From assembly GCA_029718625.1 (NCBI GenBank), contig JAINUF010000028.1:122501-186500 (forward strand): a stretch of DNA of 64,000 nucleotides. Reading direction: 5' to 3'. The stretch comes from Synaphobranchus kaupii (Eukaryota > Chordata > Actinopteri > Anguilliformes > Synaphobranchidae). Shown here piece by piece: positions 1-53,238 of this stretch. The first letter of the stretch is position 1. Each line of letters opens with the position of its first letter. The position numbers were made by a program, and so were the translations under genes. The notes beneath the pieces are model-generated. The model was not told the DNA's origin. It saw only the letters and a list, made by a program, of their open reading frames with translations, and did not search any database.

Positions 1-3000
1 ACAAACCACCACACACACAAACCCCCATCCACACACAAACCACCACCCACACACAAACCACCACACACACACAAACCACCACACACACACACACACACAC
101 ACAAACCCCCCCACACACACACAAACCCCCCACACACACACAAACCACCACCCACACACACACAAACACCCCACACACACACAAACCCCCCACAACACAC
201 ACAAACCCCCCCCACACACACACAAACCCCCCACACACACACACAAACCCCCCCACACACACACAAACCCCCCACACACACACAAACCCCCACACACACA
301 CAAACCCCCCCCCCACACACACAAACCCCCACACACACACAAACCCCCACACACACACCACAACCCCCCCACACACACACAAACCCCCCCACACACACAA
401 ACCCCCACACACACACACAAACCCCCACACACACACACAAACCCCCACACACACACACAAACCCCCCCACACACACAAACCCCCCCACACACACAAACCC
501 CCACACCCACACACAAACCCCCACACACACAAACCCCCATCCACACACAAACCCCCACACACACAACCCCCACCACACACACAACCTCCCACACACACAC
601 AAACCCCCATCCACACACAAACCCCCACACACCACAAACCCCCACACACACAAACCTCCACACACACACACAAACCACCCACACACACAAACCCCCACCC
701 ACACACAAACCTCCACACACACACAAACCCCATCCACACACAAACCCCCCACACACACACAAACCACCCACACACACAAACCCCCATCCACACACAAACC
801 ACCACACACACAAACCCCCATCCACACACAAACCCCCCACACACCCAAACCTCCACACACACACAAACCCCCATCCACACACAAACCCCCACACACACAA
901 ACCTCCACACACACACAAACCCCCATCCACACACAAACCCCCACACACACAAACCACCACACACACAAACCCCCATCCACACACAAACCCCCACACACAC
1001 AAACCTCCACACACACACAAACCCCCACACACACACTAACCCCCCATCCACACACAAACCCCCACACACACAAACCTCCACACACACACACAAACCCCCA
1101 CACACACACTAACCCCCATCCACACACAAACCCTCCACACACACACAAACCCCCATCCACACACAAACCCCCCACACACACAAACCACCACACACACAAA
1201 CCCCCATCCACCACACAAACCCCCACACACACAAACCTCCACACACACACAACCCCCCATCCACACACAAAACTCCACACACACACAAACCCCCCACACA
1301 CACAAACCACCACACACACAAACCCCCATCCACACACAAACCCCCACACACACAAACCTCCACAGACACACAAACCCCCCCACACACACACTAACCCCCA
1401 TCCACACACAAACCCCCATCCCACACACAAACCTCCACACACCACACAAACCCCCACACACACACAAACCCCCCACACACACACAAACCCCCATCCACAC
1501 ACAAACCTCCACACACACACAAACCCCCCATCCACACACAAACCCCCACACACACAAACCACCACACACACAAACCCCCATCCACACACAAACCCCCACA
1601 CACACAAACCCCCATCCACACACAAACCCCCATCCACACACAACCTCCACACACACACAAACCCCCATCCACACACAAACCCCCACACACACACAAACCA
1701 CCACACACACAAACCACCAGACACACACAAACCCCCACACACACACAAACCCCCACACACACACACAAACCACCACACACACACAAACCCCCATCCACAC
1801 ACAAACCTCCACACACACACAAACCCCCACACACACACAAACCACCACACATACACAAACCCCCATCCACACACAAACTCCACACACACACACAAACCTC
1901 CACACACACACACCACACACACACACAAACCCCCCCACACACACAAACCTCCACACACACACACACACAAACCTCCACACACACACACACACACACACAC
2001 AAACCCCCCCACACACACAAACCTCCACACACACACACAAACCTCCACACACACACAAACCCCCACACACACACAAACCCCCACACACACACAAACCCCA
2101 CACACACACAAACCCCCATCCACACACAAACCACACACACACACACACACACAAACCCCCATCCACACACAAACCACCACACACACACACACAAACCCCC
2201 ATCCACACACAAACCTCCACACACACACAAACCCCCATCCACACACAAACCACCACACACACAAACCCCCATCCACACACAAACCACCACCCACACACAA
2301 ACCACCACACACACACACACACAAACCCCCCCACACACACACAAACCCCCACACACACACAAACCACCACCCACACACACACAAACCCCCCCACACACAC
2401 ACAAACCCCCACAACACAAACAAACCCCCCCACACACACACAAACCCCCCCACACACACACAAACCCCCACACACACACAAACCCCCCCCCCCACACACA
2501 CAAACCCCCCCACACACACAAACCCCCCCACACACACACAAACCCCCACACACACAGAAAACCCCCACACACACACACAAACCCCCCCACACACACACAA
2601 ACCCCCCCACACACACAAACCCCCACACACACACACAAACCCCCACACACACACACAAACCCCCACACACACACAAACCCCCACACACACACAAACCCCC
2701 ACACACACACACAAACCCCCACACACACACAAACCCCCCACACACACACAAAACCCCCATCCACACACAAACCACCACACACACACACACACAAACCCCC
2801 ATCCACACACAAACCACCACACACACCACACACACACACCACACAAACCCCCATCCACACACAAACCTCCACACACACACAAACCCCCATCCACACACAA
2901 ACCACCACACACACAAACCACCACACACACAAACCCCCATCCACACACAAACCACCACCCACACACAAACCACCACACACCACACACACACACACAAACC

Positions 3001-3927
3001 CCCCCACACACACACAAACCCCCACACACACACAAACCACCACCCACACACACACAAACCCCCCCCCCACACACACAAACCCCCCCCACACACACACAAA
3101 CCCCCCCACACACACACAAACCCCCCACACACACACAAACCCCCACACACACACACAAACCCCCCCACACACACACAAACCCCCCACACACACACAAACC
3201 CCCCCCACACACACACAAACCCCCACACACACACAAACCCCCCCACACACACACAAACCCCCACACACACACAAACCCCCACCACACACACACAAACCCC
3301 CCCACACACACACAAACCCCCACACACACACAAACCCCCACACACACACACAAACCCCCACACACACACACAAACCCCCACACACACACAAATCCCCACA
3401 CACACACAAACCCCCATCCACACACAAACCTCCACACACACACAAACCCCCACACACACACTAACCCCCATCCACACACAAACCCCCATCCACACACAAA
3501 CCTCCACACACACACACAAACCCCCACACACACACAAACCCCCATCCACACACAAACCCCCATCCACACACAAACCACCACACAAACACAAACCACCACA
3601 CACACACAAACCCCCCACACACACACAAACCCCCACACACACACAAACCCCCATCCACACACAAACCACCACACACACACACACAAACCCCCATCCACAC
3701 ACAAACCACCACACACACACACACACACAAACCCCCATCCACACACAAACCTCCACACACACACAAACCCCCATCCACACACAAACCCCCACACACACAA
3801 ACCAGCACACACACAAACCCCCATCCACACACAAACCCGCACACACACAAACCCCCATCCACACACAAACCACCACCCACACACAAACCACCACACACAC
3901 ACAAACCACCACACACACACAAACCAC

Positions 3928-3958
<31 letters not shown>

Positions 3959-5297
3959 CCCCCCCACACACACACACAAACCCCCACACACACACAAACC
4001 CCCATCCACACACAAACCCCCATCCACACACGAACCCCCATCCACACACAAACCACCACACACACACAAACCCCCATCCTCACACAAACCCCCCCACACA
4101 CACAAACCACCACACACACAAACCCCCATCCACACACAAACCCCCACACACACACAAACCCCCACACACACACAAACCACCACACACACACAAACCCCCA
4201 CACACACACAAACCCCCACACACACACAAACCACCACACACACAAACCCCCACACACACAAACCCCCATCCACACACAAACCCCCACACACACAAACCTC
4301 CACACACACACAAACCCCCATCCACACACAAACCCCCCACACACACAAACCACCACACACACAAACCCCCATCCACACACAAACCCCCACACACACAAAC
4401 CTCCACACACACACAAACCCCCACACACACACTAACCCCCATCCACACACAAACCCCCACACACACAAACCTCCACACACACACAAACCCCCACACACAC
4501 ACTAACCCCCATCCACACACAAACCTCCACACACACACAAACCCCCATCCACACACAAACCCCCACACACACAAACCCCCATCCACACACAAAACTCCAC
4601 GCACACACAAACCCCCACACACACAAACCACCACACACACAAACCCCCATCCACACACAAACCCCCACACACACAAACCTCCACAGACACACAAACCCCC
4701 CACACACACACTAACCCCCATCCACACACAAACCCCCATCCACACACAAACCTCCACACACACACAAACCCCCACACACACACAAACCCCCACACACACA
4801 CAAACCCCCATCCACACACAAACCTCCACACACACACAAACCCCCATCCACACACAAACCCCCACACACACAAACCACCACACACACAAACCCCCATCCA
4901 CACACAACCCCCCACACACACAAACCCCCATCCACACACAAACCCCCATCCACACACAAACCTCCACACACACACAAACCCCCATCCACACACAAACCCC
5001 CCCACACACACACAAACCACCACACACACACAAACCACCACACACACAAACCACCACACACACACACACCCCCACACACACACAAACCCCCACACACACA
5101 CACAAACCACCACACACACACAAACCCCCATCCACACACAAACCCCCACACACACACACAAACCTCCACACACACACAAACCCCCACACACACACAAACC
5201 ACCACACATACACAAACCCCCATCCACACACAAACTCCACACACACCACACACACAAACCTCCACACACACACAAACCCCCATCCACACACAAACCT

Positions 5298-5355
<58 letters not shown>

Positions 5356-8300
5356 CCCCCCACACACACAAACCTCCACACACACACACAAACCTCCACA
5401 CACACACAAACCCCCACACACACACAAACCCCCCCACACACACCAAACCCCCACACACACACAAACCCCCATCCACACACAAACCACACACACACACACA
5501 CACAAACCCCCATCCACACACAAACCACCACACACACAAACCCCCATCCACACACAAACCCCCACACACCACAAACCTCCACAGACACACAAACCCCCCA
5601 CACACACACTAACCCCCATCCACACACAAACCCCCATCCACACACAAACCTCCACACACACACAAACCCCCACACACACACAAACCCCCCATCCACACAC
5701 AAACCTCCACACACACACAAACCCCCATCCACACACAAACCCCCACACACACAAACCACCACACACACACAAACCCCCATCCACACACAACCCCCCACAC
5801 ACACAAACCCCCATCCACACACAAACCCCCATCCACACACAAACCTCCACACACACACAAACCCCCCATCCACACACAAACCCCCACACACACACAAACC
5901 ACCACACACACACAAACCACCACACACACAAACCACCACACACACACAAACCCCCACACACACACAAACCCCCCACACACCACACACAAACCACCACACA
6001 CACACAAACCCCCATCCACACACAAACCCCCACACACACACACAAACCTCCACACACACACAAACCCCCACACACACACAAACCACCACACATACACAAA
6101 CCCCCATCCACACACAAACTCCACACACACACACAAACCTCCACACACACACAAACCCCCATCCACACACAAACCCTCCACACACACACACAAACCTCCA
6201 CACACACACACACACACACACACAAACCCCCCCACACACACAAACCTCCACACACACACACACACACAAACCTCCACACACACACAAACCCCCACACACA
6301 CACAAACCCCCCCCACACACACAAACCCCCACACACACACAAACCCCCACACACACACAAACCCCCATCCACACACAAACCACACACACACACACACAAA
6401 CCCCCATCCACACACAAACCACCACACACACACACACACACAAACCCCCATCCACACACAAACCTCCACACACACACAAACCCCCATCCACACACAAACC
6501 CCCACACACACAAACCACCACACACACAAACCACCACACACACACAAACCCCCATCCACACACAAACCACCACCCACACACAAACCACCACACACACACA
6601 CACACACAAACCCCCCCACACACACACAAACCCCCACACACACACAAACCCACCACCCACACACACACAAACCCCCCCACACACACACAAACCCCCACAA
6701 CACACAGAAACCCCCCCCACACACACACAAACCCCCACACACACACACAAACCCCCCCACACACACACAAACCCCCACACACACACAAACCCCCCCACAA
6801 ACACACAAACCCCCACACACACACAAACCCCCCCCACACACACACAAACCCCCACACACACACAAACCCCCCACACACACACACAAACCCCCCCACACAC
6901 ACACAAACCCCCCCACACACACAAACCCCCACACACACACACAAACCCCCCACACACACACACAAACCCCCACACACACACAAACCCCCACACACCACAC
7001 AAACCCCCCCCACACACACAAACCCCCACACACACACAAACCCCCACACACACACAAAACCCCCCATCCACACACAAACCACCACACACACACACACACA
7101 AACCCCCATCCACACACAAACCACCACACACACACACACACACAAACCCCCATCCACACACAAACCTCCACACACACACAAACCCCCATCCACACACAAA
7201 CCACCACACACACAAACCCCCATCCACACACAAACCACCACCCACACACAAACCACCACACACACACAAACCACCACACACACACACACACACACACAAA
7301 CCCCCCCACACACACACAAACCCCCCCACACACACACAAACCACCACCCACACACACACAAACCCCCCCCACACACACACAAACCCCCCCCACACACACA
7401 AACCCCCCCACACACACCACAACCCCCCGCACACACACAAACCCCCACACACACACACAAACCCCCCCACACACACACAAACCCCCACACACACACAAAC
7501 CCCCCCACACACACACAAACCCCCACACACACACAAACCCCCCCACACACACACAAACCCCCACACACACACAAACCCCCCACACACACACACAAACCCC
7601 CCCACACACACACAAACCCCCACACACACACAAACCCCCACACACACACACAAACCCCCACACACACACACAAACCCCCACACACACACAAATCCCCACA
7701 CACACACAAACCCCCATCCACACACAAACCTCCACACACACACAAACCCCCACACACACACAAACCACCATCCACACACAAACCCCCATCCACACACAAA
7801 CCACCACACAAACACAAACCACCACACACACACAAACCCCCATCCACACACAAACCCCCACACACACACAAACCCCCACACACACACAAACCCCCATCCA
7901 CACACAAACCACCACACACACACACACCACAAACCCCCATCCACACACAAACCACCACACACACACACACACACACAAACCCCCATCCACACACAAACCT
8001 CCACACACACACAAACCCCCATCCACACACAAACCCCCACACACACAAACCACCACACACACAAACCCCCATCCACACACAAACCCGCACACACACAAAC
8101 CCCCATCCACACACAAACCACCACCCACACACAAACCACCACACACACACAAACCACCACACACACACACACACACAAACCCCCCCACACACACACAAAC
8201 CCCCACACACACACAAACCCCCATCCACACACAAACCCCCATCCACACACGAACCCCCATCCACACACAAACCACCACACACACACAAACCCCCATCCTC

Positions 8301-9965
8301 ACACAAACCCCCCCACACACACAAACCACCACACACACAAACCCCCATCCACACACAAACCCCCACACACACACAAACCCCCACACACACACAAACCACC
8401 ACACACACACAAACCCCCACACACACACAAACCCCCACACACACACAAACCACCACACACCACAAACCCCCCACACACACAAACCCCCATCCACACACAA
8501 ACCACCACACACACAAACCCCCATCCACACACAAACCCCCATCCACACACAAACCACCACACACGCACAAACCCCCATCCACACACAAACCCCCACACAC
8601 ACAAACCCCCATCCACACACAAACCACCACACACACAAACCCCCACACACACAAACCCCCATCCACACACAAACCCCCACACACACACAAACCACCACAC
8701 ACACACAAACCCCCATCCACACACAAACCCCCATCCACACACAAACCACCACCCACACACAAACCCCCACACACACAAACCCCCATCCACACACAAACCC
8801 CCACACACACAAACCCCCATCCACACACAAACCCCCATCCACACACAAACCCCCACACACACAAACCCCCATCCACACACAAACCCCCACACACACAAAC
8901 CCCCATCCACACACAAACCCCCATCCACACACAAACCCCCACACACACACAAACCCCCACACACACACAAACCCCCCCACACACACAAACCCCCACACAC
9001 ACACAAACCCCCACACACACACAAAACCCCCATCCACACACAAACCACCACACACACACACACACAAACCCCCCCACACACACACAAACCCCCACACACA
9101 CACAAACCACCACCCACACACACACAAACCCCCCCACACACACACAAACCCCCCACACACACACAAACCCCCCACACACACACACCCCCACACACACACA
9201 AACCCCCCCACACACACACAAACCCCCCCACACACACACAAACCCCCACACAAACACAAACCACCACACACACACAAACCCCCATCCACACACAAACCCC
9301 CACACACACACAAACCCCCACACACACACAAACCCCCATCCACACACAAACCACCACACCACACACACACACATACCCCCATCCACACACAAACCACCAC
9401 ACACACACAAACCCCCATCCACACACAAACCCCATCCACACACAAACCACCACCCACACACAAACCCCCCCACACACACAAACCCCCATCCACACACCAA
9501 ACCCCCCACACACACAAACCCCCATCCACACACAAACCCCCATCCACACACAAACCCCCACACACACAAACCCCCATCCACACACAAACCCCCACACACA
9601 CAAACCCCCATCCACACACAAACCCCCATCCACACACAAACCCCCACACACACACAAACCCCCACACACACACAAACCCCCCCCACACACACAAACCCCC
9701 ACACACACACAAACCCCCACACACACACAAAACCCCCCATCCACACACAAACCACCACACACACACACACACAAACCCCCATCCACACACAAACCACCAC
9801 ACACACACACACACACACAAACCCCCATCCACACACAAACCTCCACACACACACAAACCCCCATCCACACACAAACCCACCACACACACAAACCACCACA
9901 CACACAAACCCCCATCCACACACAAACCACCACCCACACACAAACCACCACACACACACAAACCA

Positions 9966-10003
<38 letters not shown>

Positions 10004-12991
10004 CCCCCCACACACACACAAACCCCCACACACACACAAACCACCACCCACACACACACAAACCCCCCCACACACACACAAACCCCCCCACACACACACA
10101 AACCCCCCCACACACACACAAACCCCCACACACACACAAACCCCCCCACACACACACAAACCCCCCCACACACACACAAACCCCCACACAAACACAAACC
10201 ACCACACACACACAAACCCCCATCCACACACAAACCCCCACACACACACAAACCCCCACACACACACAAACCCCCATCCACACACAAACCACCACACACA
10301 CACACACACATACCCCCATCCACACACAAACCACCACACACACACACACACACACAAACCCCCATCCACACACAAACCTCCACACACACACAAACCCCCA
10401 TCCACACACAAACCCCCACACACACAAACCACCACACACACAAACCCCCATCCACACACAAACCCGCACACACACAAACCCCCATCCACACACAAACCAC
10501 CACCCACACACAAACCACCACACACACACAAACCACCACACACACCACACACACACACACAAACCCCCCCACACACACACAAACCCCCCACACACACACA
10601 AACCCCCATCCACACACAAACCCCCATCCACACACGAACCCCCCATCCACACACAAACCACCACACACACACAAACCCCCATCCTCACACAAACCCCCCC
10701 ACACACACAAACCACCACACACACAAACCCCCATCCACACACAAACCCCCCACACACACACAAACCCCCCACACACCCACACAAACCACCACACACACAC
10801 ACAAACCCCCACACACACACAAACCCCCCACACACACCACAAACCACCACACACACAAACCCCCACACACACAAACCCCCATCCACACACAAACCACCAC
10901 ACACACAAACCCCATCCACACACAAACCCCCATCCACACACAAACCACCACACACGCACAAACCCCCATCCACACACAAACCCCCCCCACACACAAACCC
11001 CCATCCACACACAAACCACCACACACACAAACCCCCACACACACAAACCCCCATCCACACACAAACCCCCACACACACACAAACCACCACACACACACAA
11101 ACCCCCATCCACACACAAACCCCCATCCACACACAAACCACCACCCACACACAAACCCCCACACACACAAACCCCCACACACACAAACCCCCATCCACAC
11201 ACAAACCCCCACACACACAAACCCCCATCCACACACAAACCCCCATCCACACACAAACCCCCATCCACACACAAACCACCACCCACACACAAACCCCCAC
11301 ACACACAAACCCCCATCCACACACAAACCACCACACACACACAAACCACCACACACACACACACACACAAACCCCCATCCACACACAAACCTCCACACAC
11401 ACACAAACCCCCATCCACACACAAACCCCCACACACACAAACCACCACACACACAAACCCCCATCCACACACAAACCCGCACACACACAAACCCCCATCC
11501 ACACACAAACCACCACCCACACACAAACCACCACACACACACAAACCACCACACACACACACACACACAAACCCCCCCACACACACACAAACCCCCACAC
11601 ACACACAAACCCCCATCCACACACAAACCCCCATCCACACACGAACCCCCATCCACACACAAACCACCACACACACACAAACCCCCATCCTCACACAAAC
11701 CCCCCCACACACACAAACCACCACACACACAAACCCCCCATCCACACACAAACCCCCACACACACAAACCCCCATCCACACACAAACCCCCATCCACACA
11801 CAAACCACCACACACGCACAAACCCCCATCCACACACAAACCCCCCCCACACACAAACCCCCATCCACACACAAACCACCACACACACAAACCCCCCACA
11901 CACACAAACCCCCATCCACACACAAACCCCCACACACACACAAACCACCACACACACACAAACCCCCCATCCACACACAAACCCCCCATCCACACACAAA
12001 CCACCACCCACACACAAACCCCCACACACACAAACCCCCACACACACAAACCCCCATCCACACACAAACCCCCCACACACACAAACCCCCATCCACACAC
12101 AAACCCCCATCCACACACAAACCCCCATCCACACACAAACCACCACCCACACACAAACCCCCACACACCACACAACCCCCATCCACACACAAACCACCAC
12201 ACACACACAAACCACCACACACACACACACACACAAACCCCCATCCACACACAAACCTCCACACACACACAAACCCCCATCCACACACAAACCCCCACAC
12301 ACACAAACCACCACACACACAAACCCCCCATCCACACACAAACCCGCACACACACAAACCCCCATCCACACACAAACCACCACCCACACACAAACCACCA
12401 CACACACACAAACCACCACACACACACACACACACACAAACCCCCCCACACACACACAAACCCCCACACACACACAAACCCCCATCCACACACAAACCCC
12501 CATCCACACACGAACCCCCATCCACACACAAACCACCACACACACACAAACCCCCATCCTCACACAAACCCCCCCACACACACAAACCACCACACACACA
12601 AACCCCCATCCACACACAAACCCCCACACACACACAAACCCCCACACACACACAAACCACCACACACACACAAACCCCCACACACACACAAACCCCCACA
12701 CACACACAAACCACCACACACACAAACCCCCACACACACAAACCCCCATCCACACACAAACCACCACACACACAAACCCCCATCCACACACAAACCCCCA
12801 TCCACACACAAACCACCACACACGCACAAACCCCCATCCACACACAAACCCCCCACACACACAAACCCCCATCCACACACAAACCACCACACACACAAAC
12901 CCCCACACACACAAACCCCCATCCACACACAAACCCCCACACACACACAAACCACCACACACACACAAACCCCCATCCACACACAAACCCC
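1..12991. repeat. A/C-only satellite-like array with higher-order structure
   Basis: Nearly 13 kb in which the + strand consists almost entirely of A and C. It is built from short variants of ACACACAAACCCCC alternating with CATCCACACACAAACC and ACCACACACAC modules. T appears mainly in CATCC, CCTCC and CTAACC variants, and G only at rare marker positions such as CACGAACC and AAACCCGC. A marker segment holding CACGAACC followed by ATCCTCACACAAACC recurs near 4030, 8250, 10635, 11640 and 12508, so blocks were duplicated as higher-order units. The minus strand is T/G only, with many GGGGG runs. Long open frames on the minus strand (up to 2532 codons of Cys/Val/Gly/Trp repeats) follow from the absence of stop codons in such sequence and are not genes. 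The array runs into a gap, so its true length is unknown. Confidence 0.95.
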
Positions 12992-24195: not shown

Positions 24196-25114
24196 AAAGA
24201 CCGATCAATGACCCTCAAGTCGATCAGAGGAGTGAAAATTGAGCAGTGATGTGGGAAATATTGTACCGGTTGAAACCCTCCCTCTTTTGGTGATGTCATG
24301 GCCAATTATCTGTAGCTTGGTGAGGCATTGCGAAGTAGGGTGCATGAGGCCTACAAACAAGGAATCTCATTTAATGCCAGAGAGAGAGGGGCCCTTTAAT
24401 TGGTAGCAGTTTTAATTGGGCCTCCTGGTGTGGGCCTATATGCCTTATTGAGACCACTGCGGTGAAGGTATGCGGTATGCACTGTATGGCAATGCTTTTG
24501 TCTGCAGTTTTCGGATTTGTAACCTTGGCAACCAACAAATAGCCCGAAGAGCGGTATTGTGGGAATTTGAGGCCCGGTGACCTCTCAGGGGGCAGATGCC
24601 TCCTCCTGGAGTGTCCCAGACCAGCCCCGGACTGTGGGCACACGGAGCCGAGCGGACGGTTGGAATCGGAGGGCTGAAAGAACTCTTGTTCTGCCAGAAT
24701 TCCAATGGCCGCATTTGAAAGAGAGATGAACGGAACTTCAGGCGCAGCGCTGCATTCCACCTTCAGAACTTATTCTCAGTGTTAAATTGACATTTGCAAA
24801 CGGGCTCATTTGGGATGGGCATTATTCTATCAGTCTGGGCCTTCATAGAATAGCTGAGTGCGTATCTAACAGCATTCCCCAGCATACCACTGAAAATGAT
24901 GGGAATAGGAGTACATCTCCCTGTTGAAAGCGTGGGAGTAGGAGGATAATGTCCATTTATTTGTGCAATGCCAATTGGGCCTGTTGAGAACTGGGAATAA
25001 GCAAGAACTCTAGCATTTTCATGCTGTCAGTTGTTTGTTTGTGTGTACACCTCCTCTCCGGCCCATGTGGCTACGTGTTGGGATTTGACCTTTGACCCCT
25101 CTCTCTCCGTTTAG
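24196..25114. other. Intron 1 sequence upstream of glypican exon 2
   Basis: No exon with glypican exon 1 features (signal peptide followed by a CSEVR-like segment) is visible here or elsewhere upstream in the window. Positions 24949-25033 are duplicated downstream at 27487-27569. The last bases, CTCTCTCTCCGTTTAG, form a good 3' splice site for exon 2. Confidence 0.6.
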
Positions 25115-25273
25115 GTGCCCACCTGAAGGTGTGTCCGCAGGGCTTCACCTGCTGCACGGTGGAGATGGAGGAGAAGCTGAGTCAGCAGAGCTGCTCTGAC
25201 CTGAAGGCCCCAGTCAACCAGCTGAGCAGCACCCTGCAGAGCACCTTCACCCAGAGGCACAGACACTTTGACC
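25115..25273 (+). CDS. gpc4: Glypican-4 exon 2 (first visible exon of the gene)
   Basis: The gene encodes a GPI-anchored cell-surface heparan-sulfate proteoglycan core protein that modulates Wnt, FGF and BMP-type signalling. Exon 2 encodes AHLKVCPQGFTCCTVEMEEK and continues to RHRHFD, the Cys-rich N-terminal part of the glypican core, very close to the vertebrate GPC4 segment. The acceptor is TCCGTTTAG and the donor ACC|GTGAGT, leaving one base of the next codon. Exons 2-9 together give 1544 coding bases, 513 complete codons plus stop. With a typical exon 1 of about 50 residues this matches the usual 555-565 residue length. The GPC4 over GPC6 choice rests on the HLK.CPQG segment, the VSQKVFQGCG and SSGEGSGSGC segments, and the neighbouring hs6st2-like exon. 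Exon 1 is outside the window, in the gap, or unrecognised. Confidence 0.88.
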
Positions 25274-27345
<2,072 letters not shown>

Positions 27346-27440: not shown

Positions 27441-27618
27441 TTGGTTTCCATTTTTTTGTTTCTACCCATTTTTACATTTCAAGAAAATGTCCATTTATTT
27501 GTGCAATGCCAATTGGGCCTGTTGAGAACTGGGAATAAGCAAGAACTCTAGCATTTTCATGCTGTCAGTTTGGTTTCCATTTTTTTGTTCCTACCCATTT
27601 TTACATTTCAAGAAAATG
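27441..27618. repeat. Duplicated segment pair: copy of the exon 2 upstream region between two direct repeats
   Basis: 27487-27567 is an essentially identical copy of 24949-25031, which lies upstream of exon 2. It is sandwiched between two direct copies of a segment with TTTGGTTTCCATTTTTTTGT and CTACCCATTTTTACATTTCA (27441-27488 and 27568-27618). Confidence 0.88.
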
Positions 27619-28234: not shown

Positions 28235-31005
28235 CCTCCCACTCCCCTGCAGATTTCACTCCCCTGCAGATTTCACTCCCTCTCACTCCCCTGCAGATTT
28301 CACTCCCTCTCACTCCCCTGCAGATTTCACTCCCTCCCACTCCCCTGCAGATTTCACTCCCTCCCACTCCCCTGCAGATTTCACTCCCTCTCACTCCCCT
28401 GCAGATTTCACTCCCTCTCACTCCCCTGCAGATTTCACTCCCTCTCACTCCCCTGCAGATTTCACTCCCTCTCACTCCCCTGCAGATTTCACTCCCTCTC
28501 ACTCCCCTGCAGATTTCACTCCCTTTCACTCCCTCCCACTCCCCTGCAGATTTCACTCCCTCTCACTCCCCTGCAGATTTCACTCCCTCTCACTCCCCTG
28601 CAGATTTCACTCCCTCTCACTCCCCTGCAGATTTCACTCCCTCCCACTCCCCTGCAATTTCACTCCCTCCCACTCCCCTGCAGATTTCACTCCCCTGCAG
28701 ATTTCACTCCCTCTCACTCCCCTGCAGATTTCACTCCCTCTCACTCCCCTGCAGATTTCACTCCCTCTCACTCCCCTGCAGATTTCACTCCCTCTCACTC
28801 CCCTGCAGATTTCACTCCCTCCCACTCCCCTGCAGATTTCACTCCCTCTCACTCCCCTGCAGATTTCACTCCCTCTCACTCCCCTGCAGATTTCACTCCC
28901 TTTCACTCCCTCTCACTCCCCTGCAGATTTCACTCCCTCTCACTCCCCTGCAGATTTCACTCCCTCTCACTCCCCTGCAGATTTCACTCCCTCCCACTCC
29001 CCTGCAGATTTCACTCCCTCCCATTCCCCTGCAGATTTCACTCCCTCCCATTCCCCTGCAGATTTCACTCCCTCCCATTCCCCTGCAGATTTCACTCCCT
29101 CCCTCTCCCCTGCAGATTTCACTCCCTCCCACTCCCCTGCAGACTTCACTCCCTCCCACTGCCCTGCAGATTTCACTCCCTCCCATTCCCCTGCAGATTT
29201 CACTCCCTCCCATTCCCCTGCAGATTTCACTCCCTCCCATTCCCCTGCAGATTTCACTCCCTCCCTCTCCCCTGCAGATTTCACTCCCTCCCTCTCCCCT
29301 GCAGATTTCACTCCCTCCCATTCCCCTGCAGATTTCACTCCCTCCCATTCCCCTGCAGATTTCACTCCCTCCCATTCCCCTGCAGATTTCACTCCCTCCC
29401 TCTCCCCTGCAGATTTCCCCCTGCAGATTTCACTCCCTCCCTCTCCCCTGCAGATTTCACTCCCTCCCCACTCCCCTGCAGATTTCACTCCCTCCCCATT
29501 CCCCTGCAGATTTCACTCCCTCCCATTCCCCTGCAGATTTCACTCCCTCCCTCTCCCCCTGCAGATTTCACTCCCTCCCATTCCCCTGCAGATTTCACTC
29601 CCTCCCATTCCCCTGCAGATTTCACTCCCTCCCTCTCCCCTGCAGATTTCACTCCCTCCCACTCCCCTGCAGATTTCACTCCCTCCCACTCCCCTGCAGA
29701 TTTTCACTCCCTCTCACTCCCCTGCAGATTTCACTCCCTCTCACTCCCCTGCAGATTTCACTCCCTCTCACTCCCCTGCAGATTTCACTCCCTCTCACTC
29801 CCCTGCAGATTTCACTCCCCTCTCACTCCCCTGCAGATTTCACTCCCTTTCACTCCCTCCCACTCCCCTGCAGATTTCACTCCCTCTCACTCCCCCTGCA
29901 GATTTCACTCCCTCTCACTCCCCTGCAGATTTCACTCCCCTCTCACTCCCCTGCAGATTTCACTCCCTCCCACTCCCCTGCAATTTCACTCCCTCCCACT
30001 CCCCTGCAGATTTCACTCCCCTGCAGATTTTCACTCCCTCTCACTCCCCTGCAGATTTCACTCCCCTCTCACTCCCCTGCAGATTTCACTCCCTCTCACT
30101 CCCCTGCAGATTTCACTCCCTCTCACTCCCCTGCAGATTTCACTCCCTCCCACTCCCCTGCAGATTTCACTCCCTCTCACTCCCCTGCAGATTTCACTCC
30201 CTCTCACTCCCCTGCAGATTTCACTCCCTTTCACTCCCTCTCATCCTCCCCTGCAGATTTCACTCCCTCTCACTCCCCTGCAGATTTCACTCCCTCTCAC
30301 TCCCCTGCAGATTTCACTCCCTCCCACTCCCCTGCAGATTTCACTCCCTCCCATTCCCCTGCAGATTTCACTCCCTCCCATTCCCCTGCAGATTTCACTC
30401 CCTCCCATTCCCCTGCAGATTTCACTCCCTCCCTCTCCCCCTGCAGATTTCACTCCCTCCCACTCCCCCTGCAGACTTCACTCCCTCCCACTGCCCTGCA
30501 GATTTCACTCCCTCCCATTCCCCTGCAGATTTCACTCCCTCCCATTCCCCTGCAGATTTCACTCCCTCCCATTCCCCCTGCAGATTTCACTCCCTCCCTC
30601 TCCCCTGCAGATTTCACTCCCTCCCTCTCCCCTGCAGATTTCACTCCCCTCCCATTCCCCTGCAGATTTCACTCCCTCCCATTCCCCCTGCAGATTTCAC
30701 TCCCTCCCATTCCCCTGCAGATTTCACTCCCTCCCTCTCCCCCTGCAGATTTCACTCCCTCCCACTCCCCTGCAGATTTCACTCCCTCCCATTCCCCTGC
30801 AGATTTCACTCCCTCCCATTCCCCTGCAGATTTCACTCCCTCCCTCTCCCCTGCAGATTTCACTCCCTCCCATTCCCCTGCAGATTTCACTCCCTCCCAT
30901 TCCCCTGCAGATTTCACTCCCTCCCTCTCCCCTGCAGATTTCACTCCCTCCCACTCCCCTGCAGATTTCACTCCTCCCCACTGCCCTGCAGATTTCACTC
31001 CCTCC
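28235..31005. repeat. 28-bp minisatellite resembling 3' splice sites, roughly 100 copies
   Basis: The unit core is CTCACTCCCCTGCAG followed by ATTTCACTCCCT, with C/T variants. Each copy has a branch-point-like CTCAC, a pyrimidine tract and CAG|A. The array lies within intron 2, ending about 5.9 kb before exon 3. The period is not a multiple of three, so all three + frames stay open for about 1000 codons with Pro/Ser/His/Phe repeats. These frames are not genes. Two sub-blocks (28235-29700 and 29700-30990) show the same order of variants, including shortened units with GCAATTTC (near 28656 and 29981), so the array itself was duplicated. Confidence 0.96.
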
Positions 31006-31747
31006 CACTTTTTTTTTCTTTTTCATTTGCATTAAATTCATTTTCCTGTCTTTTTTTTGTCCGAGTGACTGAAGTATCAGAAACTGAAGGAGGTGGTTAA
31101 AATGGGTGTGAATACTTACAGATGGGGGAGTTGATTCTGGTCTGGGACAGGAAGGAAATTAGTGTGGAGTTTGGGAGCGCGTGGCTCTCCTGTGTTTTCC
31201 CACGGACCGTCTCGGGCATTACCCCTCGCAAACGCAGCGGAAAGTGTCATAGTATTTGAGTCCAATCCGAAGGGTCCGGTTGAAACCGGACGTTAATATA
31301 GTTTGTAAAAGCCGGTGATGTGATTGACATTACTTCTTAAAAGGCAATGAAACATTCATAAACAGGGATTAAATTCATAGGACAGAGGCGGAAAAGAGCA
31401 AACATTCAAGTAAGAGAGATGCCCCTTGTTCTTATTTAGACTGTGGGAGCAGCTGCAGCACAGCAATCCCACAATCCCGGCTCCACCTCCAGGGGTCTAT
31501 ATACCACATATTGCTACTATGTACAATATAAATATTTGAGGACTTTAATGATGACCATATTACCATTGATTACTAAAACAGATCGTATCCACAAGACTGA
31601 AACATGTCATTTATGAAATACAGAAATGTTTCTTATAAAGTATTTTTAAAAGGGGAAAATCTTTTTCCCAGACACCAGTTTCGAAACCCTTGTGTTATAT
31701 TAATGTCATAATCACATCACAGGCTTTTACAAACTATATTAATGTCA
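31006..31747. other. Intron 2 sequence with repeat fragments
   Basis: Mostly unrecognised. 31293-31326 is an extra copy of the AAAGCCGGTGATGTGATT motif found at 31748-31809. 31339-31413 has a diverged direct copy at 34866-34952 (shared AATTCATAGGACAGAGGCGG). 31414-31455 is the inverted partner of 34499-34540. Confidence 0.7.
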
Positions 31748-36924: not shown

Positions 36925-37322
36925 AGTTTTTCCGCGAGTTGCTGGACAACGCAGAGCGCTCCCTGCACGACATGTTCGTGCGCACCTACGGCGTGATGTA
37001 CATGAAGAACGCCGAGCTCTTCAAGCACTTCTTCCAGGAGCTAAAGCTGTACTATGCGTCAGGCAGTGCGGCGGTCAACATGGACACAATGCTGGCCGAC
37101 TTCTGGGCGGAGCTGCTGGAACGCATGTTCAAACTGGTGAACGTTCAGTACGAGTTCCCCGACTCGTACATGGACTGCGTCAGCCGGCACACGGAGCAGC
37201 TCAAGCCCTTCGGCGACGTGCCGCGCAAGCTCCGCCTCCAGTTGACGCGCGCCTTCGTGGCCGCCCGCACCTTCACCCGCGGCCTGGAGTTGCTTCCTGA
37301 GGTGGCGGACAAGGTTTCCATG
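36925..37322 (+). CDS. gpc4: Glypican-4 exon 3
   Basis: The acceptor CTCCCGCCCGCAG precedes [18 protein letters not shown], and the exon runs through [54 protein letters not shown] and [17 protein letters not shown] to KVSM, with donor ATG|GTGAGA in phase 0. This is the alpha-helical core of the glypican ectodomain. The junction codon with exon 2 becomes CAG (Gln), where mammalian GPC4 and GPC6 have Glu. The exon is markedly GC-richer than the surrounding intron. Length and joins match the vertebrate gene. Confidence 0.95.
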
Positions 37323-41137: not shown

Positions 41138-41303
41138 GTGAGCGCCTCTCCTGACTGCCAGCGGGCTGCTATGAAGATGCTGTACTGCCCCTATTGCTCG
41201 GGACAGGTGGCCCTCAAGCCCTGCCAGAACTACTGCCTCAACGTGCTGCGCGGCTGCCTGGCCAACCAGGCCGACCTGGACTCCGAGTGGAACAACTTCC
41301 TGG
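41138..41303 (+). CDS. gpc4: Glypican-4 exon 4
   Basis: The exon follows acceptor GGGTCTCCCACAG and encodes VSASPDCQRAAMKM, CPYCSGQVALKPCQNYCLNV and LRGCLANQADLDSEWNNFL, ending G|GTGAGA. This is the Cys-dense segment used as the glypican family signature. The residue after CSG is Gln, whereas GPC4 and GPC6 of mammals carry Leu. The Cys spacing is intact. One base carries over to complete a Glu codon with exon 5. Confidence 0.96.
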
Positions 41304-42608: not shown

Positions 42609-42739
42609 AGGCGATGTTGAGTCTGGCAGAGAGACTGGAGGGCCCATTTAATTTTGAGTCTGTAATGGACCCCATCGATGTGAAGATCTCTGATGCCATC
42701 ATGAACATGCAGGAGAACAGCATACAGGTCTCACAGAAG
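42609..42739 (+). CDS. gpc4: Glypican-4 exon 5
   Basis: After acceptor TCTTTCTCCCAG the exon encodes (E)[37 protein letters not shown] and IQVSQK, with donor AAG|GTGAGT in phase 0. The segment is among the most conserved in GPC4 and GPC6. VSQK at the end favours GPC4, as mammalian GPC6 has VSAK. Confidence 0.95.
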
Positions 42740-44661: not shown

Positions 44662-44808
44662 GTGTTTCAAGGTTGTGGTCAGCCCAAGCTAGCCACGGTC
44701 GTCCGGTCCAGGAGGTCCATCAAAGATGGAAGCTTCCCTGGACGCTTCAGGCCTTACACCCCTGACGCCTGGCCCACCACTGCAGCCGGAACCAGCCTGG
44801 ACAGGCTG
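44662..44808 (+). CDS. gpc4: Glypican-4 exon 6 with proprotein convertase site
   Basis: The exon encodes [19 protein letters not shown], then [20 protein letters not shown] and TSLDRL, in phase 0 at both ends (acceptor CTCTTCCAG, donor CTG|GTAAGG). RSRR followed by Ser (44704-44715) matches the furin-like convertase motif where glypicans are cleaved into two disulfide-linked subunits. [12 protein letters not shown] is a vertebrate GPC4/GPC6 hallmark. Confidence 0.95.
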
Positions 44809-45246: not shown

Positions 45247-45371
45247 GTGACGGATGTGAAGAAGAAACTCAAGCAGGCGAAGAAGTTTTGGTCCACTCTG
45301 CCGGAGAATGTGTGTGTTGGGGACAGGGTGGCACCAGGGGATGAGTGCTGGAACGGCACTGCCAGGAGCAG
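45247..45371 (+). CDS. gpc4: Glypican-4 exon 7
   Basis: The exon encodes [40 protein letters not shown] and S, ending AG|GTCAGA, two bases into the Arg codon. The donor is weaker than its neighbours (GTCAGA instead of GTRAGT), and a G run lies 25 bp downstream. NGT is a potential N-glycosylation sequon. Confidence 0.93.
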
Positions 45372-45841: not shown

Positions 45842-46014
45842 GTATGAGTCCACCGTCATGGGCAGCGGCTTAGCCAATCAGGTGTCGAATCCCGACGTGG
45901 AAGTCGACATTACAAAGCCAGATGTGATGATCCGCCGTCAGATCGCGATATTGAAGGAGATGACCAGCCGACTGAAGGCGGCCCACAGTGGCAATGACAT
46001 CACCATTGAGACGG
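45842..46014 (+). CDS. gpc4: Glypican-4 exon 8
   Basis: The exon encodes (R)YESTVMGSGLANQVSNPDV, EVDITKPDVMIRRQIAILKE and MTSRLKAAHSGNDITIET, then one base of the next codon before GTGAGA. The acceptor is CATTTCTCAG. GLANQ, NPDVEVDITKPD and the GND segment are standard in glypicans. Its donor must skip over the 5-kb intron 8 minisatellite to join exon 9. Confidence 0.94.
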
Positions 46015-46283
46015 GTGAGAATAGAGGGGAGCTCATCAATGTCGTTGTTGCTGCCGTCCCCAAGCCACCGATTCACACACTTGTTTGAGGTTGGAAACAT
46101 ATCAGCTTATTTATTGCTCTCTCCCTCGCTAAATTCAGATTCAAGTGTGCTTTATTTGCCTGATATGAGAACTTGTGTTGCTAAAGTAGTGAATAAAATC
46201 AAACAGACACACAGATGCACACAGGCACCCCACATGGCCCACTTTCAAAATCAAAGTTTCAACCGACAAAATATGAAACTGTA

Positions 46284-49200
46284 ATGAATGACAGAAGAAA
46301 TGTATGAATACTGAATGAATCTCTGTCTCTAGATGAGGAAATGTATGAGTAATGAATGAATCTGTCTCTAGATGAGGAAATGTATGAGTAATTAATGAAT
46401 CTGTCTCTAGATGAGGAAATGTATGAGTAATGAATGAATCTCTGTCTCTAGATGAGGAAATGTATGAGTAATGAATGAATCTCTGTCTCTAGATGAGGAA
46501 ATGTATGAGTAATGAATGAATCTCTGTCTCTAGATGAGGAAATGTATGAGTAATGAATGAATCTCTGTCTCTAGATGAGGAAATGTATGAGTAATGAATG
46601 AATCTCTGTCTCTAGATGAGGAAATGTATGAGTAATGAATGAATCTGTCTCTAGATGAGGAAATGTATGAGTAATGAATGAATCTGTCTCTAGATGAGGA
46701 AATGTATGAGTAATGAATGAATCTGTCTAGATGAGGAAATGTATGAGTAATGAATGAATCTCTGTCTCTAGATGAGGAAATGTATGAGTAATGAATGAAT
46801 CTGTCTCTAGATGAGGAAATGTATGAGTAATGAATGAATCTCTGTCTCTAGATGAGGAAATGTATGAGTAATGAATGAATCTCTGTCTCTAGATGAGGAA
46901 ATGTATGAGTAATGAATGAATCTCTGTCTCTAGATGAGGAAATGTATGAGTAATGAATGAATCTCTGTCTCTAGATGAGGAAATGTATGAGTAATGAATG
47001 AATCTCTGTCTCTAGATGAGGAAATGTATGAGTAATGAATGAATCTCTGTCTCTAGATGAGGAAATGTATGAGTAATGAATGAATCTCTGTCTCTAGATG
47101 AGGAAATGTATGAGTAATGAATGAATCTCTGTCTCTAGATGAGGAAATGTATGAGTAATGAATGAATCTCTCTAGATGAGGAAATGTATGAGTAATGAAT
47201 GAATCTGTCTCTAGATGAGGAAATGTATGAGTAATGAATGAATCTCTGTCTCTAGATGAGGAAATGTATGAGTAATGAATGAATCTCTGTCTCTAGATGA
47301 GGAAATGTATGAGTAATGAATGAATCTCTGTCTCTAGATGAGGAAATGTATGAGTAATGAATGAATCTCTGTCTCTAGATGAGGAAATGTATGAGTAATG
47401 AATGAATCTCTGTCTCTAGATGAGGAAATGTATGAGTAATGAATGAATCTGTCTCTAGATGAGGAAATGTATGAGTAATGAATGAATCTCTCTAGATGAG
47501 GAAATGTATGAGTAATGAATGAATCTGTCTCTAGATGAGGAAATGTATGAGTAATGAATGAATCTGTCTCTAGATGAGGAAATGTATGAGTAATGAATGA
47601 ATCTCTGTCTCTAGATGAGGAAATGTATGAGTAATGAATGAATCTGTCTAGATGAGGAAATGTATGAGTAATGAATGAATCTGTCTCTAGATGAGGAAAT
47701 GTATGAGTAATGAATGAATCTGTCTCTAGATGAGGAAATGTATGAGTAATGAATGAATCTGTCTCTAGATGAGGAAATGTATGAGTAATGAATGAATCTC
47801 TGTCTCTAGATGAGGAAATGTATGAGTAATGAATGAATCTCTGTCTCTAGATGAGGAAATGTATGAGTAATGAATGAATCTCTGTCTCTAGATGAGGAAA
47901 TGTATGAGTAATGAATGAATCTGTCTAGATGAGGAAATGTATGAGTAATGAATGAATCTGTCTAGATGAGGAAATGTATGAGTAATGAATGAATCTGTCT
48001 AGATGAGGAAATGTATGAGTAATGAATGAATCTCTGTCTCTAGATGAGGAAATGTATGAGTAATGAATGAATCTCTGTCTCTAGATGAGGAAATGTATGA
48101 GTAATGAATGAATCTGTCTCTAGATGAGGAAATGTATGAGTAATGAATGAATCTCTGTCTCTAGATGAGGAAATGTATGAGTAATGAATGAATCTGTCTC
48201 TAGATGAGGAAATGTATAAGTAATGAATGAATCTGTCTAGATGAGGAAATGTATGAGTAATGAATGAATCTGTCTAGATGAGGAAATGTATGAGTAATGA
48301 ATGAATCTGTCTAGATGAGGAAATGTATGAGTAATGAATGAATCTGTCTAGATGAGGAAATGTATGAGTAATGAATGAATCTCTGTCTCTAGATGAGGAA
48401 ATGTATGAATAATGAATGAATCTCTGTCTCTAGATGAGGAAATGTATGAGTAATGAATGAATCTGTCTCTAGATGAGGAAATGTATGAGTAATGAATGAA
48501 TCTGTCTCTAGATGAGGAAATGTATGAGTAATGAATGAATCTCTGTCTCTAGATGAGGAAATGTATGAGTAATGAATGAATCTCTGTCTCTAGATGAGGA
48601 AATGTATGAGTAATGAATGAATCTCTGTCTCTAGATGAGGAAATGTATGAGTAATGAATGAATCTGTCTCTAGATGAGGAAATGTATGAGTAATGAATGA
48701 ATCTCTGTCTCTAGATGAGGAAATGTATGAGTAATGAATGAATCTCTGTCTCTAGATGAGGAAATGTATGAGTAATGAATGAATCTCTGTCTCTAGATGA
48801 GGAAATGTATGAGTAATGAATGAATCTCTGTCTCTAGATGAGGAAATGTATGAGTAATGAATTAATCTGTCTCTAGATGAGGAAATGTATGAGTAATGAA
48901 TCTGTCTAGATGAGGAAATGTATGAGTAATGAATGAATCTGTCTCTAGATGAGGAAATGTATGAGTAATGAATTAATCTGTCTCTAGATGAGGAAATGTA
49001 TGAGTAATGAATGAATCTGTCTAGATGAGGAAATGTATGAGTAATGAATGAATCTGTCTCTAGATGAGGAAATGTATGAGTAATGAATGAATCTGTCTCT
49101 AGATGAGGAAATGTATGAGTAATGAATGAATCTCTGTCTCTAGATGAGGAAATGTATGAGTAATGAATGAATCTCTGTCTCTAGATGAGGAAATGTATGA

Positions 49201-51439
49201 GTAATGAATGAATCTGTCTCTAGATGAGGAAATGTATGAGTAATGAATGAATCTGTCTCTAGATGAGGAAATGTATGAGTAATGAATGAATCTGTCTCTA
49301 GATGAGGAAATGTATGAGTAATGAATGAATCTCTGTCTCTAGATGAGGAAATGTATGAGTAATGAATGAATCTCTGTCTCTAGATGAGGAAATGTATGAG
49401 TAATGAATTAATCTGTCTCTAGATGAGGAAATGTATGAGTAATGAATGAATCTGTCTAGATGAGGAAATGTATGAGTAATGAATGAATCTGTGTCTCTAG
49501 ATGAGGAAATGTATGAGTAATGAATGAATCTCTGTCTCTAGATGAGGAAATGTATGAGTAATGAATGAATCTGTCTCTAGATGAGGAAATGTATGAGTAA
49601 TGAATGAATCTCTGTCTCTAGATGAGGAAATGTATGAGTAATGAATGAATCTCTCTAGATGAGGAAATGTATGAGTAATGAATGAATCTCTGTCTCTAGA
49701 TGAGGAAATGTATGAGTAATGAATGAATCTCTGTCTCTAGATGAGGAAATGTATGAGTAATGAATGAATCTCTGTCTCTAGATGAGGAAATGTATGAGTA
49801 ATGAATGAATCTCTGTCTCTAGATGAGGAAATGTATGAGTAATGAATGAATCTCTGTCTCTAGATGAGGAAATGTATGAGTAATGAATGAATCTCTGTCT
49901 CTAGATGAGGAAATGTATGAGTAATGAATGAATCTCTGTCTCTAGATGAGGAAATGTATGAGTAATGAATGAATCTCTGTCTCTAGATGAGGAAATGTAT
50001 GAGTAATGAATGAATCTGTCTCTAGATGAGGAAATGTATGAGTAATGAATGAATCTCTGTCTCTAGATGAGGAAATGTATGAGTAATGAATGAATCTGTC
50101 TCTAGATGAGGAAATGTATGAGTAATGAATGAATCTCTGTCTCTAGATGAGGAAATGTATGAGTAATGAATGAATCTCTCTAGATGAGGAAATGTATGAG
50201 TAATGAATGAATCTCTGTGTCTAGATGAGGAAATGTATGAGTAATGAATGAATCTCTGTGTCTAGATGAGGAAATGTATGAGTAATGAATGAATCTCTGT
50301 CTCTAGATGAGGAAATGTATGAGTAATGAATGAATCTCTGTCTCTAGATGAGGAAATGTATGAGTAATGAATGAATCTGTCTCTAGATGAGGAAATGTAT
50401 GAGTAATGAATGAATCTCTGTCTCTAGATGAGGAAATGTATAAGTAATGAATGAATCTGTCTCTAGATGAGGAAATGTATGAGTAATGAATGAATCTCTG
50501 TCTCTAGATGAGGAAATGTATGAGTAATGAATGTGTCTCTAGATGAGGAAATGTATGAGTAATGAATGAATCTCTCTAGATGAGGAAATGTATGAGTAAT
50601 GAATGAATCTCTCTAGATGAGGAAATGTATGAGTAATGAATGAATCTGTCTCTAGATGAGGAAATGTATGAGTAATGAATGAATCTCTGTCTCTAGATGA
50701 GGAAATGTATGAGTAATGAATGAATCTCTGTCTCTAGATGAGGAAATGTATGAGTAATGAATGAATCTGTCTCTAGATGAGGAAATGTATGAGTAATGAA
50801 TGTGTCTCTAGATGAGGAAATGTATGAGTAATGAATGAATCTGTCTAGATGAGGAAATGTATGAGTAATGAATGAATCTGTCTAGATGAGGAAATGTATG
50901 AGTAATGAATGAATCTGTCTCTAGATGAGGAAATGTATGAGTAATGAATGAATCTCTGTCTCTAGATGAGGAAATGTATGAGTAATGAATGAATCTCTGT
51001 CTCTAGATGAGGAAATGTATGAGTAATGAATGTGTCTCTAGATGAGGAAATGTATGAGTAATGAATGTGTCTCTAGATGAGGAAATGTATGAGTAATGAA
51101 TGTGTCTCTAGATGAGGAAATGTATGAGTAATGAATGAATCTCTGTCTCTAGATGAGGAAATGTATGAGTAATGAATGAATCTCTGTCTCTAGATGAGGA
51201 AATGTATGAGTAATGAATGAATCTCTGTCTCTAGATGAGGAAATGTATGAGTAATGAATGAATCTCTGTCTCTAGATGAGGAAATGTATGAGTAATGAAT
51301 GAATCTCTGTCTCTAGATGAGGAAATGTATGAGTAATGAATGAATCTCTGTCTCTAGATGAGGAAATGTATGAGTAATGAATGAATCTGTCTCTAGATGA
51401 GGAAATGTATGAGTAATGAATTAATCTCTCTGCCTCTAG
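46284..51439. repeat. 35-41 bp minisatellite of 3' splice-site-like units, about 125-130 copies
   Basis: The unit begins ATGAGGAAATGTATGAGTAA, continues TGAATGAATC and ends in a pyrimidine stretch of variable length: TCTGTCTCTAG, TGTCTCTAG or TGTCTAG. Length variation is mainly in 2-bp steps in this stretch. The array fills nearly all of intron 8, and its last copy supplies the acceptor of exon 9. Each unit's AG is followed by ATGAGGA, close to the start of exon 9 (ATGAAGA), so the unit appears to derive from that junction. Confidence 0.96.
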
Positions 51440-51684
51440 ATGAAGATGGGAGCAGTGGGGAGGGGAGTGGCAGTGGGTGTGAGTCTCCCTCCTGTGAGGA
51501 GAACCTGGACATTTACTTCTCCACGGCTAGTCCTCGCAAGCCCTTCGTACCGCGCGTGAAGGAGGTGAAGGCGGTGAAGGCAGTGGAGGAAGACGGGAGC
51601 GGTGCGGGCCTGGAGAGCCGGAGCAGCAGGACCCTGGTGCTGGCAGGGCTAGCCCTGGCTCTGTTCTTACCTCTCTGGAGATAG
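51440..51684 (+). CDS. gpc4: Glypican-4 terminal exon 9 (glycosaminoglycan sites and GPI signal)
   Basis: The exon starts with two bases of an Asp codon and encodes EDGSSGEGSGSGCESPSC, then EENLDIYFSTASPRKP and a Lys/Glu-rich stretch. It ends with a hydrophobic tail, TLVLAGLALALFLPLWR, and stop TAG (51682-51684). The SSGEGSGSG cluster next to acidic residues is the heparan-sulfate attachment region. The tail is a GPI-anchor signal, with the likely omega site among the small residues in GSGAG or SRSS. The middle is shorter and more basic than in mammalian GPC4. The acceptor TGCCTCTAG lies in the last unit of the intron 8 repeat. Confidence 0.95.
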
Positions 51685-52409: not shown

Positions 52410-53238
52410 ACAGAGTGTGTGTGTGCACAGGTGTCCTTGTGCATCCCAAAGGGGGTGGAAAGAATGGATTCTGGGGTTGAATCTGGGTAAGGAGGGCAAA
52501 AGGATTCTTTGTCCAATGAAAAACAATTGGGTGTGGCTAAGAGATGGAGGCGGGGCTTAAGGGGAAGGTGGGTGTAAATTAAAGGAAGCTGGGATGGGAT
52601 TGATACAAAGAGGACACGGACAATAAAAGGGTGATAGGATGGTAATAGCCAGGGTTTGGGTTGAGTGGGAAGGTTTTGTATTGGGAGTAATGAAAGAAGT
52701 ATGTGTGAGAGCAGGTCCATGCAATGCATGCGTAAGTGGCAATGCTGAATTTGTGGATTCACACTCAATAAACGCAGATGGGAAGTGTTTGGGCTGGCCG
52801 ATTAGCAGCACACGAGAGAAATGTCCGATAGTGTCATGTGCATTTACAATGTGGAACATGCCCATAAGAAATGCCTGGGACTTCTCACTGTACATTAAAT
52901 GTTGAAGAGGGAAAAACCAGCCCTGAAGGAACAAACCCAACAGCTAGAGTCTAGAAAGCAGGAGGAGGATACTGTGCACAATCCATCCCATCCTCTCACA
53001 CGAGAGCAGGTGAGCCTCGTGGTGTATTTGATAGCATAACTGATAAGACATAAGCTGACCTGACCGAGGCGGTGTGGATTTTGTGTGTGAATGTGCAAGA
53101 GATTTTACGGTTCAGAAAAACCAAAATGGAATTGAGGGTGTTCTAAAACAAATCTTTTATGCAGAAGGAGTTTTACTTTCATATATGGTACTTAAGTTAA
53201 TTTTATCTCCAGTTCCAAAAGGAAGACTGAAGTGTTTG
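51685..53238. other. gpc4 3' untranslated region and downstream flank
   Basis: It starts with a GA microsatellite (51693-51760), followed by unique sequence with GT repeats near 52036-52085. Candidate AATAAA polyadenylation signals are at about 52622 and 52767; I cannot tell which is used. 52359-52408 is a (GT)n-TA-(CA)n self-complementary tract. Confidence 0.6.
52359..52408. repeat. Self-complementary GT-TATA-CA microsatellite
   Basis: About nine GT units, then TATA, then about 14 CA units. The two arms are reverse complements of each other, so the tract can fold into a hairpin in RNA or a cruciform in DNA. Confidence 0.93.

Follow-up and report, generated by a model that had tools for sequence, protein, structure and literature searches.

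The glypican-4-like locus and its intron 8 minisatellite

The window analysed here is a 64,000-nucleotide stretch of the Synaphobranchus kaupii genome (GCA_029718625.1, JAINUF010000028.1; C28:122501-186500), which lies on a 1.41-Mb scaffold in an assembly of 1.50 Gb and 94 contigs and contains exons 2 to 9 of a glypican-4-like gene. About 5.15 kb of intron 8 of this gene is a 41-bp minisatellite that runs up to the start of exon 9, and every unit of it carries a module resembling a 3' splice site. When exons 3-9 are spliced together they give a single open frame of 460 residues, and the predicted product matches the Pfam family Glypican (PF01153; E 2.5e-184) and no other family at E 0.001. Among the matches listed, the closest relatives are a Conger conger protein named 'glypican-4-like' (87% over 100% of the query) and then proteins of Aldrovandia affinis (86%) and Anguilla anguilla (86%), three genera which we take to form an eel-like (elopomorph) grouping. 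By the Pfam match and these relatives the predicted product is a glypican, and is glypican-4-like. The parts of the gene and of the array are as follows (window positions).

25115..25273, + strand: exon 2, with donor GTGAGT at 25274
36925..37322, + strand: exon 3
41138..41303, + strand: exon 4
42609..42739, + strand: exon 5
44662..44808, + strand: exon 6
45247..45371, + strand: exon 7
45842..46014, + strand: exon 8, the first base completing a split Arg codon; donor gtgaga
46015..51439, + strand: intron 8 (5425 bp), ~5.15 kb of it occupied by the array
46284..51439, + strand: 41-bp minisatellite (mirage; see below), made up of the true 3' splice-site module and 129 decoys before it
46294..46298, + strand: GAAGA at the left edge of the array; the same five bases are in exon 9 at 51442-51446
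51397..51439, + strand: 43-bp final unit, which carries the true acceptor; the sole unit with a ctctctgcctctag stretch, and with a branch-point-like TTAAT at -16
51440..51684, + strand: exon 9 (terminal coding exon), with an SG-rich region, a hydrophobic tail and the stop codon TAG at 51682-51684
52622..52627, + strand: candidate polyadenylation signal AATAAA; another is at 52767

Structure of the array

Tandem Repeats Finder (TRF) reports 130.0 copies of a 41-bp unit with 95% matches between 46297 and 51443, and there is no run of N inside the array. A preliminary description of this DNA had proposed a series of tandem decoy acceptors directly before the terminal exon, with the last repeat serving as the real one. 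Both points are borne out by a count of TAGATGA, which occurs 130 times in register from 46330 to 51437; the first 129 are decoys, and the final copy holds the true acceptor, the first base of exon 9 being 51440. The array is also present where it had been placed (46284..51439), but the first TAG is not reached until 46330 and positions 46284-46296 are a degenerate edge.

All 129 units between these sites open with ATGAGGA, and the TAG after the pyrimidine stretch is retained in every one of the 129 decoys. The intervals between the sites (n=129) are 41 bp in 68 instances, 39 bp in 35, 37 bp in 19, 35 bp in five, and 33 and 43 bp once each, the 43-bp interval being the last, true unit. Lengths thus change in 2-bp steps from 33 to 43 bp, in agreement with the steps first noticed in the pyrimidine stretch. 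Unit positions 1-26 vary at four positions only, and the remaining variation is downstream, in or beside the pyrimidine stretch. There are 14 unit types arranged in a mixed map, and 64 of the units are identical. Like units are neighbours in 57 pairs compared with a shuffled mean of 39.4 (57 was reached in 0 of 2000 shuffles), which would fit local minisatellite expansion. Block duplication inside the array was considered and rejected; the longest repeated word of unit types has eight units, is a run of the commonest type, and was reached in 106 of 500 shuffles. The core of the array is homogenised, the last unit is unique and the left edge is degenerate.

The unit spans about the last 36 bases of the intron and the first 5-7 bases of the exon, and for this reason the array resembles an amplified intron/exon junction, as had been suggested. 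A decoy unit aligned with the true junction gives a 37-nt match at 86.5%, which consists of 30 intron and 7 exon bases, with one mismatch within the 7 bases at the start of exon 9. Among the matches to the unit listed, all are inside the intron 8 array.

Comparison with known boundary-spanning repeats

Minisatellites of this type have been described in amphioxus as 'mirages', with examples in Adh3 and the globin genes BflGb6 and BflGb9. Excerpts of that account (PMC3087553) describe tandem copies of intron-exon boundaries, many with splice signals, in clusters of unstable length whose boundaries are left out of homogenisation; reverse-transcription PCR suggests that regular splicing is undisturbed. 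In the BflGb6 mirage, units of 150-160 bp number 6 in one haplotype and 3 in another, and the Adh3 units are 10-72 bp (PMC3087553). As far as these excerpts go, the glypican array is similar in that its units hold the boundary and keep splice signals, and in its homogenised core and divergent edges; it differs in having 130 units of 41 bp, in being in a vertebrate, and in lying before a terminal exon. By structure the glypican array is a mirage, and is an extreme form of a known kind. A second example is the lancelet PGBD5 gene, for which excerpts of PMC3902484 describe tandem repeats of 60 and 108 bp over splice sites that are said not to affect accurate splicing, and also name Adh and troponin C; the 108 bp repeat is an imperfect triplication, compared with the 130 units of the glypican array.

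Narrow searches of the open-licence literature found no boundary-spanning minisatellite in a vertebrate, and the glypican array would extend these elements from lancelets to a vertebrate. It would also be a natural test of 3' splice-site choice, with 130 near-identical acceptors in cis and one terminal exon; what mainly distinguishes the acceptors is the length of the pyrimidine stretch, which changes by 2 bp at a time. If the decoys leak, protein output would be set by allele length.

Reading frame of the decoys and exon 9

Joining exon 8 to a decoy gives the translation DEEMYE followed by a stop in 127 of the 129 decoys, as had been predicted for all of them, and DEEMYK followed by a stop in the other two. 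DEEMYE is found in none of the best 120 of 1232 homologues. Across the exon 8/9 join this gene and four of the six closest relatives read TDED, and the other two relatives read NDED and NDEY. Exon 9 is open and holds both the SG motifs and the hydrophobic C-terminus; presumably these correspond to the heparan-sulfate (HS) sites and the glycosylphosphatidylinositol (GPI) anchor that, by the preliminary description, a decoy product would lack. There is also a three-residue KAV insertion in exon 9 of this gene. Escape of decoy transcripts from nonsense-mediated decay, which had also been proposed, is in part plausible; such a transcript would have no downstream junction, but its 3' untranslated region (UTR) could extend to about 6 kb, and a long 3' UTR can itself trigger decay.

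Acceptor strength and splice-site choice

The preliminary description proposed that each AG be scored with a splice-site model. By an approximate vertebrate matrix, with which seven acceptors of the gene were scored, the true exon 9 acceptor (8.74) tops all of the decoys, which range from 0.15 to 7.15 (n=129; 66 are at 7.15 and none is above). The branch-point consensus yTnAy is missing in 125 of the 129 decoys and is present at the true site (TTAAT, -16). Each decoy has an AG-free zone of 14-34 bases and its own AG. This differs from the AG exclusion zone systems outlined in excerpts of PMC1431707, which concern long AG-free zones, first-AG scanning, and which AG each branch point serves. If a branch point takes the first AG downstream, each would serve its own unit, and the choice of unit would be made when the branch point is picked.

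With moderate confidence we favour the reading that the mirage is tolerated, with splicing mostly correct. Exon 8 would still join mainly to the last copy at 51440, and the decoys would be mostly silent, perhaps leaking some truncated transcripts. We infer both the low leak and the preference for the true site, the latter because the pyrimidine stretch of this copy is the best of all, its branch-point motif fits the consensus, and no other copy adjoins the coding terminal exon directly. The open exon 9 with its SG motifs and hydrophobic tail, and the lack of DEEMYE in the best 120 of 1232 homologues, also speak for this reading.

A further minisatellite in the same gene provides an internal control, although not a perfect one.

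28257..31009, + strand: 27-bp minisatellite in intron 2, with acceptor-like AGs on the sense strand

Of its 99 AGs, 96 score at least as high as the exon 9 acceptor and 95 have a yTnAy motif. The claim that choosing the final site in intron 8 is a singular splicing problem is weakened by these 96 acceptor-like repeats in the same pre-mRNA, and also by the amphioxus mirages, which excerpts of PMC3087553 present as harmless to regular splicing.

Several observations weigh against a tolerated mirage. First, 66 of the 129 decoys outscore the acceptors of exon 7 (5.52) and exon 8 (6.70), which makes half of them adequate acceptors as far as sequence goes. Second, the distinction in branch-point motif is not complete: yTnAy is present in four decoys (three at -12, and one at -16 like the true site), the motif at the true site is closer at -16 than the usual 18-37, and in the common decoy unit a GTAAT that agrees with the TNA core lies at about -22. 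Third, a naive additive competition among scores leaves the true exon 9 site with 4.2%. The same sum leaves the exon 3 acceptor with 0.7% against the intron 2 array, and such a competition is a poor guide, because the protein of exons 3-8 is conserved despite this figure. Fourth, a decoy in intron 2 would depend on a donor further downstream, and those of intron 8 would share the real terminal exon and its poly(A) signals; because of these shared signals, exon definition protects less against the intron 8 decoys. Finally, exon 9 of this gene changes relatively fast. Its ratio of exon 9 to exon 3-8 differences is 3.37 (the mean of its six pairs) compared with 2.44 for the 15 pairs among relatives, and is the highest of the seven sequences (the others are 2.15 to 3.02), the pairs not being independent. 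At columns invariant in the six relatives, private changes occupy 5 of 36 for exon 9 compared with 4 of 284 for exons 3-8; both counts are small. Mild relaxation, as leaky splicing would give, is a possible explanation of this pattern.

These points bear most directly on the proposal that the decoys are used at a meaningful and possibly regulated level, which would give a secreted glypican lacking the HS sites and the GPI anchor. Entry at any of the 129 decoys brings an early stop codon within an exon that would then be the last, the 66 higher-scoring ones exceed two of the gene's own acceptors, and the naive competition favours the decoys; exon 9 changes relatively fast in this copy, and a paralogue on C8 (see below) could relax constraint. 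We nevertheless regard such use as unlikely, as exon 9 remains open with its motifs, no end of this sort is present in the 120 best of the 1232 homologues, and the amphioxus mirages, in the excerpts noted above, are said to be harmless to splicing.

Origin of the array

The array probably began with a tandem duplication of a 41-bp segment across the intron 8/exon 9 junction, which would have grown into a minisatellite in a repeat-rich genome, with an almost intact 3' splice-site module kept in each copy (a GTAAT resembling a branch point, a pyrimidine stretch and TAG). We infer this founding duplication of the junction segment; the array, the junction, the frame and the open exon 9 are all directly observed. 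The GAAGA match between the left edge and exon 9 is a possible microhomology of the founding duplication, and five bases could match by chance.

Minisatellites are plentiful in this genome. A sample of 20 stretches, each 1 Mb from contig starts, has 17 arrays (with periods of 10-120 and lengths of 200 bp or more) in 183 kb, accounting for 8.7% of bases, and two of these have more than 116 copies. The intron 8 array is far beyond chance, yet its copy number alone is therefore not remarkable for the genome. Boundary-spanning arrays are present at two of the eight exons of the gene in the window compared with none of 24 other glypican exon cores, these cores being six-frame matches rather than exact exons, with flanks of ~600 bp (one of them, L040, containing 500 N), derived from 25 of the 41 matches outside C28 (49 matches in all). 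The idea that mirages are common in the genome was rejected: three of the 24 cores were flagged, and none has an array that spans the boundary when read. In L049 the array homology stops 10 bases before the exon, in L052 it stops 11 bases before it, and in L041 it starts after four intron bases.

The second boundary duplication in the window is at the exon 2 donor.

25616..25695, + strand: second copy of the end of exon 2 and its donor, a two-copy mirage

Here 67 of 68 bases of the exon 2 end and donor recur 405 bp downstream, inside a CA-rich array. The stretch up to the second donor is in frame and free of stops, and its use would insert 135 residues (mostly His-Thr plus the copy of the exon 2 end) with exon 3 remaining in frame. 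This open stretch is no proof of use, because the CA repeats are stop-free here and one length in three would be divisible by three by chance. An 88-bp stretch upstream of exon 2 (24945-25032) also recurs at 27483-27570, after the CA array, at 98.9%, a hint that a longer segment around exon 2 was duplicated.

An alternative origin is a minisatellite that began within the intron close to exon 9 and extended to the exon by chance, the match to the exon being coincidental and no junction having been duplicated. The match takes in only seven exon bases, one of them mismatched, and the three arrays beside other glypican exons come within 4, 10 and 11 bases of the exon without reaching it. We think this quite unlikely, as the last unit is the true acceptor and is in register over at least 30 intron bases, and the exon 2 donor of the same gene is a clear boundary duplication.

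In the paralogous glypican-4 gene on C8, intron 8 measures ~1.2 kb and lacks the array, and only TC-rich repeats precede its acceptor. This paralogue (L033, C8:3330100-3331900) has an apparent one-base frame break in exon 8 and another in exon 9, which are either sequencing error or decay.

Further explanations

The array could be a switch tuned by copy number, in which 129 decoys against one acceptor set the ratio of membrane HS-glypican to a secreted core ending in DEEMYE according to allele length, with the fast change of exon 9 as the mark of its part-time use and the 135-residue insertion at the exon 2 donor operating in parallel. Taken jointly, these propositions are very doubtful. It is also very improbable, and slightly more so, that assembly artefacts account for the copy number or the 2-bp variants. 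In favour are the shortness and gaps of the scaffold, its separation from exon 1, and the one-base frame breaks in the C8 paralogue; against this, the 14 unit types form a mixed map with no sign of block copying, the array is without a run of N, and exons 2-9 have no visible frame break. That the array is retained as a binder of a splicing factor (PTBP1 or U2AF), acting as a sink or silencer, is extremely unlikely. The density of TCTCT speaks for it, at 36.7 per kb in the array compared with 0 to 3.7 in seven other stretches; against it, the PTBP1 motif YUCUYY is at 1.4 per kb compared with 1.8 to 10.7 elsewhere, and the C8 paralogue is without the array. The array was likewise rejected as a PTBP1 sponge RNA, with YUCUYY not dense at this frequency. 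Excerpts of PMC6224606 describe PNCTR as a PTBP1-binding repeat RNA with the YUCUYY motif; like it, the glypican array would place pyrimidine-rich tandem repeats in RNA, and unlike it, the array is not enriched for YUCUYY.

Upstream sequences

A likely exon 1 is elsewhere in the assembly, at C10:53517548-53517697 (- strand; L047), and matches Conger residues 1-56 at 88%. Scaffold C28 may belong on the C10 contig, with the break within a CA-rich, gapped intron 1. A CA-rich 18-bp satellite of 13 kb occupies window positions 10-12991 and adjoins a 500-base gap.

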